From NCBI GenBank assembly GCA_002284915.1, contig CP015606.1, positions 930,001-994,000 of the forward strand: DNA of 64,000 nt, in the 5' to 3' direction. Positions 33,846 to 39,160 of the stretch are shown in pieces. The translations under genes were made by a program, and so were the position numbers. The notes below the pieces were generated by a model that did not search any database, was not told where the DNA came from, and saw only the letters and a program-made list of their open reading frames with translations. How positions within the stretch are numbered: position 1 is the first letter of the stretch; the number at the start of each line of letters is the position of its first letter. This DNA comes from Actinobacteria bacterium IMCC26077. GTDB lineage: Bacteria > Actinomycetota > Actinomycetes > Nanopelagicales > Nanopelagicaceae.

Positions 33846-34702
33846 TTCTGAGTTTGCGTGATGGTCGCGCGCTCGACTTCATCAGTAACGATTCCGCTTC
33901 CAAGAGCGCGATTCTCTTTCACCATGGCACTCCTGGCGAGTGTTCGCTCTGGTCGCCTTGGCTATCGGAGATAACAGATGTAGCGGCGATTGCAGCGAGC
34001 AGGCCAGGTTATGCCCTCAGCGATCGACGCAAAGGGCGAACTGTTGCTTCCGATGTGGAAGATCAAAGTGAACTTCTTGATCACCTCGGAATTGAGCGGT
34101 TTGTCTCGATCGGTTGGTCCGGTGGCGGACCGCACGCCATCAATATGACAAGAGATGATCGATGCGTAGGTGCGATTACCTTGGCTGGTGTGGGTGAATG
34201 GGGCCATGCGGACCTTGATTTCCTCGCCGGAATGGGGCCGGAGAATCATGAGGAATTCGGAGCTGCTTTAGCCGGGGAATCTGAGATTGAAAGGTGGATG
34301 GAGAAAAATGCGCCCGCCTTTGCTGCAGTCACAGGGGCAGACCTGATCGAGGCTTTTGGCGGCTTGATTGGCGAGGCCGACAAACGAGCGCTTACTGCTC
34401 GCGTTGCCGATCATGACGCCGCTTCTTATCGGCGCTCACTATCCGAGGGTTTCTATGGTTGGCTCGATGATGACCTTGCGTTCGTTCAGAATTTTGGATT
34501 TTCACTTGCGGAGATAGATAAGCCTGTGCTTGTCTGGCAAGGCGATGATGATTTCATGGTGCCTCGAGCGCATAGCCAATGGTTAGCCAAACATACCCCG
34601 ACTGCTCAATTGAATTTCGTTCCAGGCCATGGGCATATTTCTTTGGTGGAGGAGTATCGAGGAGAGATCCTCAATCAAGCGCGAAAGTTATTGCGAAGCT
34701 AG
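33842..34702 (+). CDS. Alpha/beta hydrolase
   Basis: A 286-aa alpha/beta-fold hydrolase. The oxyanion region is LFHHGTPGECSLW (about 25), the nucleophile elbow is IGWSGGGPHA (G-x-S-x-G, Ser about 98), the acid is in WQGDDDFMVP (about 235) and the His in VPGHGHISLVEE (about 262). A GTG start at 33842 overlaps the preceding stop (GTGA) and fits the start of the fold; the frame is open further up into the neighbouring gene. It is likely translationally coupled to the Gfo/Idh enzyme. The ester or epoxide substrate is not predictable. Confidence 0.87.
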   Translation: MILSLRDGRALDFISNDSASKSAILFHHGTPGECSLWSPWLSEITDVAAIAASRPGYALSDRRKGRTVASDVEDQSELLDHLGIERFVSIGWSGGGPHAINMTRDDRCVGAITLAGVGEWGHADLDFLAGMGPENHEEFGAALAGESEIERWMEKNAPAFAAVTGADLIEAFGGLIGEADKRALTARVADHDAASYRRSLSEGFYGWLDDDLAFVQNFGFSLAEIDKPVLVWQGDDDFMVPRAHSQWLAKHTPTAQLNFVPGHGHISLVEEYRGEILNQARKLLRS

Positions 34703-35433
34703 TCGGCTACACGAGGTGGGATGATTACCGCGCTTGGCGATAAGCGGTGGGCACCGAATTTGTTAATGTGCGAATCTTTTGGATAGCCAATAGCAAGTCC
34801 CGTGAGTAGCTTGTAATCCTTGGGTACATCAAATTCTTTCCTAATAACATCATCCCAAATAATCACCGCACCTTGTAAGCAGGTTCCAAGTCCGCGAGCA
34901 TGCGCAGAGAGAATGAGATTTTGCAACATCAAGCCCGCATCATTGGCAGCGAAGATATGCAAACTTTTGTGAATGTAGATAAATAGTTCGACGGGGGCAC
35001 CGAAGAACTCATAGTTCTTCGCCCACTGCTCATCACGGGCTTTCCTGTCTCCTCGAGCAACACCAATCCAACTATAAAGCTCTTTGCCCACTCGCTCCGC
35101 GCGCGGTTTGAGCTCGGGGACGTAAGGGCGAGCCATTAATCGGTGACTTGTTGGAAGCCCGGCGCCAGTCAGTAGCAACTTGATTTTGGTGAAGATATTT
35201 CCATTGCGAAACTTTGAAAGCTTCGACCAGCGACGGGAGAATTCAGCGCTGATTCGATCTTTTCTCTCGCCGGTAGCGACACAGACTTTGAATGGACGGG
35301 TGTTTGACCAGCTTGGAGCAGTCAAGGAATCAGCAATGAGCTCTTCAATCAAAGCCTCTTCTACGAGAATATTCGAGAAGTCTCTGGTCGTACGCCGGCT
35401 TGCCAAAAAATGGGAGAAATCGGAAGTACTCAC
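34699..35433 (-). CDS. Nitroreductase-family FMN protein
   Basis: A 244-aa flavin-dependent reductase. The family signature is present: SRRTTRDFSNILVEEALIEEL near the N-terminus (Arg residues for FMN phosphate; quoted as RRTTRDFSN) and APSWSNTRPF (about 38), and the C-terminal AHARGLGTCLQGAVIIWDD with LLTGLAIGYPKD. It starts with GTG and its stop overlaps the convergent hydrolase by 4 bases. It is divergent from a secreted protein gene, sharing a symmetric promoter element. Confidence 0.88.
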   Translation of the reverse strand: MSTSDFSHFLASRRTTRDFSNILVEEALIEELIADSLTAPSWSNTRPFKVCVATGERKDRISAEFSRRWSKLSKFRNGNIFTKIKLLLTGAGLPTSHRLMARPYVPELKPRAERVGKELYSWIGVARGDRKARDEQWAKNYEFFGAPVELFIYIHKSLHIFAANDAGLMLQNLILSAHARGLGTCLQGAVIIWDDVIRKEFDVPKDYKLLTGLAIGYPKDSHINKFGAHRLSPSAVIIPPRVAD

Positions 35434-37047: not shown

Positions 37048-37071
37048 TATGGTGGACGATACTGGGATCGA
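37048..37071 (-). repeat. 24-bp copy of the tRNA-Val 3' end (distal att-like site)
   Basis: These 24 bases are identical to 38869-38892, which span the T-loop to CCA end of tRNA-Val(GAC) plus two flanking bases. The match stops exactly inside the T-arm, so this is not a second tRNA gene. Together the copies bracket 1.8 kb as direct repeats, as left by integrase-type recombination. Confidence 0.85.
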
Positions 37072-37173
37072 CTCGTGGACATGTTCAATTTGCATATCCA
37101 TATAGTAGAAATTCCTACTTAGTTCGAATATTACACTAATGGGTAGGGATATTCAAGATTTAGATCCCGATTT

Positions 37174-37192
37174 CTGAATTTTTGGAATTCAG
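37174..37192. repeat. Inverted repeat downstream of the pseudo-peptidase gene
   Basis: CTGAATT and AATTCAG, 7 bp each, with a 5-base loop (TTTGG). It lies 40 bp beyond the stop of the minus-strand gene and could be a weak transcription end, but no T-run follows on that strand. Confidence 0.35.
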
Positions 37193-37232
37193 TTGGAGTT
37201 GATATTAAGCCTGAGACCAAGGTGGTTACGGT

Positions 37233-38828
37233 TTAATTTGATTTAGAAACCTCTACATAGATTCCCTCAGCATCAGCAGCTTTTACGGCAAACTGAAAGC
37301 CTTCGTATACATCTGAATTACCTACCTCTAATAGTTTTTCAGTATCTGTTTTTGCAACTCTATACGGGGCGTTTCCATGACCTCGAGTAGTGTCAAGATT
37401 GTAAAGAAGTAGCCCAGAGTATCTATATGGGTACTTACATTGGTTTGCAGTTTTTTTATCACATATTTGATATTTTTTTAAAACTGATTTAAGTGTATTT
37501 GTTCGGTACTCAGCTAAAATTACTTTAGAGTCACTTACCGGAATTGTTATCAGTTTTGGACCATCTGGGTCCTGCAAGGTTTTAACATAAACAGTTTGTG
37601 GCTCAAGTTTTGATTCAAGGCAAACAACCTCTGAATCTTTCATCCAACCTGCAATCCATCTAGACCATCCAAAAAACTCACCCCCACCAATCATCACATC
37701 CCAACCATTCCCAGGCTGTTCGTTTTTTCCTGAGGCAGAGTAGCCGCCGAAAATATATAGATCCTCAAAAGAATACAAGGCATGGCCAACTCCATGATCA
37801 AATCCATTAACCCCAATGCTTTCCAAGTCTGTGTGTAACCCATAAATACGAGCAGCAGGTATTGAATTACTACCCAATGAATAAAACGTAGTTCTGCCGC
37901 TACTGAATTTTTGAACAATTCGGTATTTACCTAGTGGGAAAAGCCACATAACTGCATCTATTTTGGTGCCTTCTGGCAAAGTGAACTGGTCTAAAAGAAA
38001 TTGCGTGACATTAGTTGTGCTTGCCGCCCACAGATTCTCGTAATATTTTACAGTATTAGGTAAATTAATTGAACTTTTCTGATCAGGCACAATAACGTTT
38101 AATTTGACTCTGTCATATGAGTTGAAACTATAAAAATCTTCTGTTTGTCTTGCCGTAATCTTAGCTTGTTCATAAAGCGAATTAGGTACTTTGTTATCAG
38201 CAAAATTTACAGGAATCCATAAAAGATTAATTTCGCCTTGACCTGCCAATGAGTAAGGGGGAGGTGGAAACCCTGATCCGACATATCCATCAGAGTTGTC
38301 CTGGGGGAAAGTTGCATCTTTAATTTTGCAAGATGAAATGGGTAGATATTGGGTCGGTAACAAAGTCTCAGGGCATTTTTTTAATCCAACCCCGCAGGTG
38401 CTTTTAAGACCGTATTGAATATTCTCATTAGGGGATGAATTGGGCGCTGCTTCTTTAGATTGATTTACAGTAATTTTTACAGTTTTGTCTTGGCTGCGCC
38501 AAGTGAATTTGCCTGATTTAGCCTCAATAAATATTTTGTAATTTCCTGTCCTTACATTATTCCCAATCTGCCAACTAATAACCCATTTACCTTCCTTTAA
38601 GCTTCCCTTAGCGAGCCGTGCTGAGCCAATTAACTTTTCATTTTGCATATTTATTAGATAAGACTTTATTGTTACATTAGAAGGCGATTTAAATTCCAGC
38701 TCTACGAAATATTCAGAACCAACCCTTGCTTCCGGATATTGACCAATGCTTTTGAGAGAAATTTGCGCATATGCAGGCTGTATGGGCAATAAAAGAATAG
38801 CAATTAGGAGAGCCAAGCTTTTTCTCAC
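37233..38828 (-). CDS. Secreted M6-peptidase-like protein with altered active site
   Basis: A 531-aa protein with a signal peptide (MRKSLALLIAILLLPIQPAYA, cleaved after AYA; quoted as LLIAILLLPIQPAYA). An N-terminal beta domain is followed by a region resembling M6/immune-inhibitor-A peptidases: LLWIPVNFADN (about 205), the zinc-site block FDHGVGHALYSFEDLYIFG (about 348) and GNGWDVMIGGGEFFGWSRW (about 375). In M6 enzymes the block reads HExGH...DLY; here the Glu codon is GGA (Gly) at 37791-37793, so catalysis is doubtful. Cysteines in pairs suggest disulfides. The gene is strongly AT-rich relative to neighbours and is the only gene between two tRNA-derived repeats, indicating acquisition. Confidence 0.75.
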   Translation of the reverse strand: MRKSLALLIAILLLPIQPAYAQISLKSIGQYPEARVGSEYFVELEFKSPSNVTIKSYLINMQNEKLIGSARLAKGSLKEGKWVISWQIGNNVRTGNYKIFIEAKSGKFTWRSQDKTVKITVNQSKEAAPNSSPNENIQYGLKSTCGVGLKKCPETLLPTQYLPISSCKIKDATFPQDNSDGYVGSGFPPPPYSLAGQGEINLLWIPVNFADNKVPNSLYEQAKITARQTEDFYSFNSYDRVKLNVIVPDQKSSINLPNTVKYYENLWAASTTNVTQFLLDQFTLPEGTKIDAVMWLFPLGKYRIVQKFSSGRTTFYSLGSNSIPAARIYGLHTDLESIGVNGFDHGVGHALYSFEDLYIFGGYSASGKNEQPGNGWDVMIGGGEFFGWSRWIAGWMKDSEVVCLESKLEPQTVYVKTLQDPDGPKLITIPVSDSKVILAEYRTNTLKSVLKKYQICDKKTANQCKYPYRYSGLLLYNLDTTRGHGNAPYRVAKTDTEKLLEVGNSDVYEGFQFAVKAADAEGIYVEVSKSN

Positions 38829-38868
38829 ATCATTATAATAGCGCCAAGAAATGTGTGGACTCTGAAAT

Positions 38869-38892
38869 TATGGTGGACGATACTGGGATCGA
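38869..38892 (-). repeat. 24-bp tRNA-Val 3' end (proximal att-like site)
   Basis: This is the functional 3' end of tRNA-Val(GAC) plus two flanking bases and matches 37048-37071 without a mismatch. It is the copy that keeps the tRNA intact. Confidence 0.85.
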
Positions 38893-38945
38893 ACCAGTGA
38901 CCCCTTCCATGTCAAGGAAGTGCGCTACCGCTGCGCCAATCGTCC
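38871..38945 (-). tRNA. tRNA-Val (anticodon GAC)
   Basis: The minus strand folds as a full cloverleaf: acceptor GGACGAT/ATCGTCC, D-arm GGCGCAGCGGTAGCGCAC, anticodon stem CTTCC/GGAAG around the loop TTGACAT (anticodon GAC), T-arm CTGG-TTCGATC-CCAG, discriminator A and an encoded CCA. It is the last of three clustered tRNAs and carries the att-like repeat. Confidence 0.95.
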
Positions 38946-38976
38946 GGGGTTTTTAACTATTTAATTTGTACCAGCG

Positions 38977-39047
38977 AGGTGGGAACGGGATTTGAACCCG
39001 TGTAGCAGGATTTGCAGTCCTGAGCCTCGCCTCTCGGCCATCCCACC
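38977..39047 (-). tRNA. tRNA-Cys (anticodon GCA)
   Basis: Minus-strand cloverleaf with acceptor GGTGGGA/TCCCACC, anticodon loop CTGCAAA (GCA), T-arm ACGGG-TTCAAAT-CCCGT and discriminator U, which is an identity element of tRNA-Cys. CCA is not encoded. Confidence 0.95.
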
Positions 39048-39087
39048 AAAAGGGGCTCACCAATGGAGAGTTGGTCAACCTCTTTCG

Positions 39088-39160
39088 AGCGGATGACGGG
39101 ACTCGAACCCGCGACATTCACCTTGGCAAGGTGATGCGCTACCAACTGCGCTACATCCGC
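39088..39160 (-). tRNA. tRNA-Gly (anticodon GCC)
   Basis: Minus-strand cloverleaf with acceptor GCGGATG/CATCCGC, D-arm TAGCGCAGTTGGTAGCGCA, anticodon loop TTGCCAA (GCC), T-arm GCGGG-TTCGAGT-CCCGT and discriminator U. CCA is not encoded. It is the first gene of the Gly-Cys-Val cluster; a TACTTT -10-like element lies just upstream. Confidence 0.95.

Follow-up and report, generated by a model that had tools for sequence, protein, structure and literature searches.

The window, meaning the whole stretch of 64,000 nucleotides analysed here, contains two perfect copies of a 24-bp sequence, TATGGTGGACGATACTGGGATCGA, located on the same strand and 1821 bp apart (Table 1). No further copy with up to 3 mismatches was found in the window, and none occurred in 100 dinucleotide shuffles. 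At the scale of the genome from which the window was taken (G000; complete, a single contig of 1.55 Mb), the sequence is present in exactly two copies. The direct repeat described in the original prediction is therefore a unique pair in this genome. ARAGORN identified an intact tRNA-Val(GAC), belonging to a Gly-Cys-Val tRNA cluster, at one side of the intervening segment and no tRNA at the distal repeat copy, as expected from the claim that one side retains the whole tRNA and the other its 3′ part alone. The islet unit is best drawn from position 38892, the T-loop base at the tRNA side, to position 37072, with the distal repeat copy being the host-side one. On its cargo side the unit reads TAATTTCAG, and the element end reads ...CACGAG before the core. 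The G+C content of the islet is 38% as compared to about 47-55% in the adjoining genes. Hence, the sole inner gene is indeed AT-rich and unlike its surroundings, and the islet carries, as had been stated, no integrase.

Table 1. Features of the tRNA-Val locus (positions in the window)
Feature	Position	Strand	Remarks
Nitroreductase gene	34699..35433	-	directly after tRNA-Val in G002
First host-side gene, 503 aa	35457..36968	+	no Pfam or NCBIfam match; directly after tRNA-Val in G003 and G004
Distal copy of the 24-bp repeat, islet boundary	37048..37071	-	core plus host-side flank
Conserved ~97-bp element end	37072..37168	-	contains AAGTAGGAATTTCTACTA (AGGAATTTCTACTA = 37103-37116); sole copy in G000
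Mosaic remnant, 72 bp	37176..37247	-	86-89% identical to terminal sequence of a gene (~131 aa) found at tRNA-Val in G021 and G160; 76% in G159
Islet gene, putatively secreted M6-metalloprotease-like protein, 531 aa	37233..38828	-	single ORF; signal peptide by inspection
tRNA-side copy of the 24-bp repeat	38869..38892	-	att core TCGATCCCAGTATCGTCCAC + CATA
tRNA-Val(GAC), intact	38871..38945	-	ARAGORN; T-loop to 3′ end within 38869-38892, the tRNA-side att copy
tRNA-Cys(GCA), conserved neighbour	38976..39047	-	ARAGORN
tRNA-Gly(GCC), conserved neighbour	39087..39160	-	ARAGORN

The islet protein matched TIGR03296, the M6 metalloprotease domain model, with an E value of 5e-8, which lies under the curated cut-off. 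Alignment with its relatives showed HGVGH in place of the HExxH zinc motif, so that the islet protein does not carry the motif used to recognize an M6 metalloprotease. At the same position, the closest homologue (53% identical, G050) reads HGIGH, and more distant relatives retain HELGH, HEFGH or HETGH. The protein is probably secreted and catalytically inactive. A sequence search of the PDB with the islet protein gave no match. A deeper relative of the islet gene is located at tRNA-Val too in G021 and G053. Judged from its sequence, the islet of the window has a mosaic make-up, with 72 bp showing homology to the end of another tRNA-Val gene between the islet gene and the element end.

In two relatives from the same genus, tRNA-Val is followed by a homologue of the first host-side gene, and both lack the islet as well as a second 24-bp copy. 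The encoded protein is 95% identical in G004 (nucleotides 90% over 789 bp) and 79% identical in G003 (nucleotides 72% over 869 bp). The empty sites that the original prediction had proposed to look for thus exist in these two relatives, but their junction is not base-precise because no conservation is seen in the spacer of about 70-140 bp that separates the tRNA from the next gene. In G001, a different segment of 3.4 kb is found behind tRNA-Val. More generally, each genome of the genus has its own version of the stretch from tRNA-Val to the nitroreductase gene, and the position is therefore a hotspot. In genus g17 (L063, L094, L099 and similar loci), the conserved gene after the variable stretch is a UppP-like gene, and in other genera a nitroreductase or an aldolase marks its end. 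The gap between tRNA-Cys and tRNA-Val also varies among relatives, ranging between tens of bases and about 2 kb (L067, L076, L082, L097, L102, L081). It is a second insertion point in the cluster, and at L081 there is a second tRNA-Cys. Finally, short tandem repeats that include the last tRNA-Val bases (TCCAC) and begin at the tRNA 3′ end were seen at L072, L079, L112 and L113.

Scanning 296 genomes of the family with the core yielded more distal copies in other genera, at 0.5-6 kb from tRNA-Val; the search for other genes between tRNA-Val and a repeat copy, also proposed at the outset, was thereby successful. When the sequences adjoining the distal copies on their inner side were compared, an end of about 97 bp emerged that aligns almost gap-free and contains the block GAACCAAGTAGGAATTTCWWCTA. 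Islets having this end are called type II hereafter. In the window, an inverted repeat, TGGATATG-N9-CATGTCCA, lies beside the core; in one subgroup of ends, an inverted repeat of the form GGATAT(G)-N7-11-(C)ATATCC stands at a distance of five bases from the core. At the tRNA side, the islet ends show no conservation. Using a sequence model of the end, 18 copies were recovered in 17 of the 296 family genomes with scores of 40-100 bits. Everything else scored at most 26.6 bits, a value reached by tRNA-Val itself, and the distribution of scores was bimodal. One of these genomes, G001, contributes through contig C235, which may be a contaminant, its flanks being those of a different genus (g17). 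Apart from the copy of the window, the type-II ends mostly stem from fragmented MAGs, and contig ends cut about half of them. A 22-base pattern of the end was also searched for in 84,980 bacterial and archaeal genomes. It gave 10 matches, all in MAGs with loci similar to those of the group. The pattern is followed by the core in nine cases and, in the tenth (L157), by an ectopic target. Loci L148, L150, L153 and L154 belong to this freshwater actinobacterial family but stand in public MAG records titled Bifidobacterium breve and Clavibacter; these titles look wrong.

Other origins of the end were considered. In IMG/VR, the only matches to the type-II end were five occurrences of one coding stretch without a core, taken as chance, and further end patterns gave no match there. 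No type-II end was found in GenBank phages and plasmids. A viral origin of the end was therefore rejected. A likeness of AATTTCTAC to a Cas12a-like repeat, noticed by eye, was discarded as well, since the complementary half is absent in most copies. The end motif had no full-length match in the vicinity of zinc-ribbon elements that carry an integrase at other tRNAs.

Type-II islets carry about eight unrelated cargos, all joined to the same end. These are a 122-aa membrane protein (G005 and G160; unit of 553 bp), PhzF (G140; 990 bp), an APH-family kinase (G141 and G135; about 1.2 kb), a 509-aa secreted BNR-like protein (G001, contig C235; 1.74 kb), a sugar ABC transporter operon with its regulator (G197; 4.5 kb), a DUF2975 protein (G109; 861 bp) and a VOC/Glyoxalase protein (G335; 580 bp), besides the gene of the window. 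Many other units are interrupted internally by contig ends, which would be expected if the strains of one sample differ at the locus. The units behave as modules. The VOC cassette comes first behind tRNA-Val in G139, second, after another cassette, in G141 and G131, and is ectopic in G335; every time, the matches begin at the first base of the core. The PhzF cassette is common to species of two genera, with 83% identity over 989 bp, and in G144 its end is decaying and the distal core is lost. Tandem units are present at tRNA-Val in G141, G131 and G109. Just inside the end, G322 and G197 retain pieces of a zinc-ribbon protein; for a part of the large zinc-ribbon/GIY-YIG-like proteins in the islet system, which was also considered, the remnants in these two copies are all that was found. 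With unrelated cargos, a common end and carriers in other species, the class of mobile cargo at tRNA-Val that the original prediction had suspected does exist.

The ectopic copy (G335, locus L157, on the 120-kb contig VGBH01000001.1, with unit borders at 1061 and 1640 of the locus) is a 580-bp unit with the core on one side and the 97-bp end on the other, and it interrupts a 5′-nucleotidase gene. When the flanks were joined at TCG, a single open frame was restored. Moreover, PF02872, the 5′-nucleotidase C-terminal domain, was recognized in full with 116 bits in the joined sequence and was absent from the unjoined one. An uninterrupted version of this gene occurs in 23 of 121 genomes of the family, and the alignment is ungapped over the junction. 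Between the target, TCACCAGATCGCTCC, and the tRNA T-arm, TCACTGGTTCGATCC, 11 of 15 bases agree, for which the chance probability is 1e-4 per position. The ectopic copy thus defines the unit without recourse to the tRNA sequence and puts the crossover in the T-loop. Barring misassembly, it demonstrates that a unit this small is, or was, mobile by itself, and that the units are not just scars of larger islands. A misassembly would need to have hit both borders of the element with the correct polarity. The tRNA-Val locus of G335 is absent from its assembly. The islet-free relatives, the conserved 97-bp end that accompanies other cargo in other species and this precise unit at a non-tRNA site are three independent lines in support of the proposed site-specific insertion into tRNA-Val.

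No recombinase gene was found in the type-II islets. In G005, a complete genome that carries an islet, a PF00589 search gave just two matches of about 310 aa, of a class present in nearly all genomes; these are presumably XerC and XerD. In G000, two more integrases are encoded elsewhere, of 391 aa (174481-175653, genome coordinates) and of 301 aa (405167-406069), so that this genome has two presumed Xer proteins and two integrases of phage type. Three IMG/VR contigs (L144, L145, L146) correspond to temperate phages, with structural genes and with an attP core or a position at the tRNA-Val of this bacterial group. In all three, a compact tyrosine integrase of 276-282 aa adjoins the tRNA-Val core or site. 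Among GenBank entries, these enzymes come nearest to the integrase of Mulchroom, a small Streptomyces phage, with 32% identity. In L146, a zinc-ribbon protein adjoins the integrase. Relatives of the L144-L146 integrase are encoded 0.1-0.2 kb behind tRNA-Val in G253, G225 and G207. The G253 element (L120, G253:C3:107708-113800) is complete and measures 6.07 kb, with the integrase, a zinc-ribbon protein and two cargo genes which, by eye, are isochorismatase-like and DJ-1/PfpI-like. These compact tyrosine integrases of phages and 6-kb elements at tRNA-Val are candidate helpers of the type-II cassettes. The best link between a type-II end and an integrase is indirect. It is provided by G042, whose locus combines, next to the tRNA, 63 bp that are 92% identical to the arm of the G225 element, itself an integrase carrier, with a type-II end at the far side, the two being separated by a contig gap; no type-II end was found on one contig with an integrase.

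Small elements at other tRNAs were also seen. At tRNA-Lys of G032 (L208), tRNA-Arg of G194 (L211) and tRNA-Leu of G029 (L209), a multi-repeat zinc-ribbon protein is accompanied by a tyrosine integrase, which has 251 aa in L208 and L211 and 386 aa in L209. The L208 and L211 elements measure about 6 kb and have a tRNA 3′ copy as their boundary. A GIY-YIG-like stretch was noted by eye at the end of most zinc-ribbon proteins that are intact. G000 itself contains a second decayed element, L222 (G000:C1, about 722,000-725,000), at tRNA-Lys(ctt). Its tRNA 3′ copy is 2.3 kb off, and it comprises a 116-aa remnant of a zinc-ribbon protein and a 56-aa remnant of an integrase.

These observations show the islet to be a discrete unit delimited by the core and a member of a family whose cargos vary over several genera behind one common end, whose units lie first or second after tRNA-Val, and of which one unit sits precisely in a foreign gene. 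We consider it likely that the islet is a non-autonomous integrative cassette, with an integrase acting in trans. Such a cassette would be composed of one cargo gene, one recombination end of about 97 bp and a core of 20-24 bp identical to tRNA-Val from the T-loop to the 3′ end. A circular form made of cargo, end and core could then recombine with the 7-base T-loop through a tyrosine integrase, which would restore the tRNA and displace the old 3′ end. Because no type-II islet encodes an integrase, we infer that the enzyme is supplied in trans, possibly by tRNA-Val-targeting temperate phages or small satellite-like elements. Several observations speak against the model: no type-II end shares a contig with an integrase, none was found in IMG/VR or in GenBank phages and plasmids apart from the chance coding match, the islet ends at the tRNA side vary, most of the other copies lie in fragmented MAGs, and G000 has two further integrases of its own.

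The main rival of this model is in-place decay, in which the islet would be what remains of a larger integrase-bearing element, prophage or satellite, whose integrase was deleted on the spot and which is now immobile. Integrase-bearing elements do occupy tRNA-Val (G253, G225), and the zinc-ribbon remnants of G322 and G197, the decaying end of the PhzF cassette in G144 and the 72-bp remnant within the window islet also speak for this view. Decay surely contributes. However, it gives a poor account of the integrase-free 580-bp unit at an ectopic site and of compact cassettes that recur in different positions and genera with their boundary at the core. With about eight unrelated cargos on one end, repeated independent deletion down to a single gene is also less economical, and we regard decay as an unlikely explanation of the islet as a whole. 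An exchange of cargos by homologous recombination between conserved flanks, making the locus a replacement island to which the tRNA repeat is incidental, would agree with a tRNA-Val/nitroreductase region that varies from one genome of the genus to the next. Yet such exchange creates neither a copy of the tRNA 3′ part nor a conserved end and, unless the ectopic copy is misassembled, does not account for insertion into an unrelated 5′-nucleotidase gene; its probability is very small. Least probable, to the point of being negligible, is that the distal repeat derives from a decayed second tRNA-Val left by a tandem duplication. Such duplications do occur in the family, as shown by the tandem tRNA-Val(gac) of G315, but upstream of the distal copy one finds the 97-bp end common to other species rather than tRNA sequence, ARAGORN detects no tRNA there, and islet-free relatives exist.

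The cassette model can be extended, tentatively and with more doubt than conviction, to a view of tRNA-Val as an integron-like entry site. Single-gene cassettes with the 97-bp end would circulate among freshwater Actinomycetota, the newest one lying next to the tRNA, and would be moved in trans by integrases borne on passing phages or satellites. If this were true, a streamlined host would keep a gene-capture site without the cost of an integrase. To our knowledge, the genomes of streamlined freshwater bacteria often encode, apart from recombinases of Xer type, no integrase. The cassettes thus bear on how such bacteria may acquire and exchange individual metabolic genes. The 97-bp end offers a sequence handle to count cassettes in metagenomes, to predict which genes are moving and to test which integrase moves them.

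Integron cassettes consist of one gene and one recombination end, attC, with a GTTRRRY core, and a later cassette pushes the earlier one outwards. The type-II units resemble them in the association of a gene with one end, in their entry beside a fixed site and in the presumed outward displacement of the earlier cassette. In contrast, their core is the tRNA T-loop sequence TCGATCCCAGTATCGTCCAC, which is not the GTTRRRY core of an attC, and no integron integrase is known here. As compared to prophages and PICI-like satellites, the islet lacks an integrase and phage genes, which are present in other tRNA-Val elements. Tycheposons, as summarised in PMC10872708, are elements of 4-200 kb with their own tyrosine recombinase. 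They share with the present family the targeting of a tRNA, metabolic cargo and hosts among streamlined plankton, but the islet measures 1.8 kb and has no recombinase. In Dehalococcoides, 15 ssrA islands without an integration module have been reported (PMC3146451). As far as that account goes, they are similar in their 20-bp 3′-end repeat, T-loop crossover, short conserved motif inside the repeat and tandem arrangement; they differ in depending on a serine recombinase, in targeting tmRNA and in their size of many kb, as compared to single-gene units in a tyrosine-integrase context at tRNA-Val. Closer still are the tRNA-delimited cassettes of additive flexible islands in 'Ca. Actinomarinales' (PMC7771536) and 'Ca. 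Methylopumilus' (PMC10872708), for which sizes of 330 bp and up and intergeneric exchange are reported. The islet, too, is small and located at a tRNA in a streamlined aquatic bacterium, with variable content at a fixed place and with the tRNA 3′ end present as a direct repeat. Its host tRNA is different, being the tRNA-Val of a freshwater actinobacterial order, and a conserved end, an ectopic insertion and candidate integrases distinguish the present family from those cassettes as they are described in the two papers. In the parts of the cited sources considered here, we found no description of a 97-bp end common to cargos and genera, of one-gene size as a rule or of a clean ectopic insertion. 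Also among the closest are cis-mobilizable elements (CIMEs), which are defined as decayed ICEs or IMEs (PMC5704250). Like a CIME, the islet has att sites on both sides, here evidenced by the 24-bp repeat, the conserved end and the islet-free relatives, and encloses no integration or transfer gene but a single M6-like ORF, and units of the family stack at the 3′ end of their target. As to a descent from an ICE or IME through loss of modules, the zinc-ribbon remnants of G322 and G197 are the relevant observation, and no conjugation gene was noticed. Unlike CIMEs as presented in that source, the units go down to 553-580 bp, a size that holds one gene, have one end in common across several genera and, in one instance, stand alone at an ectopic site.
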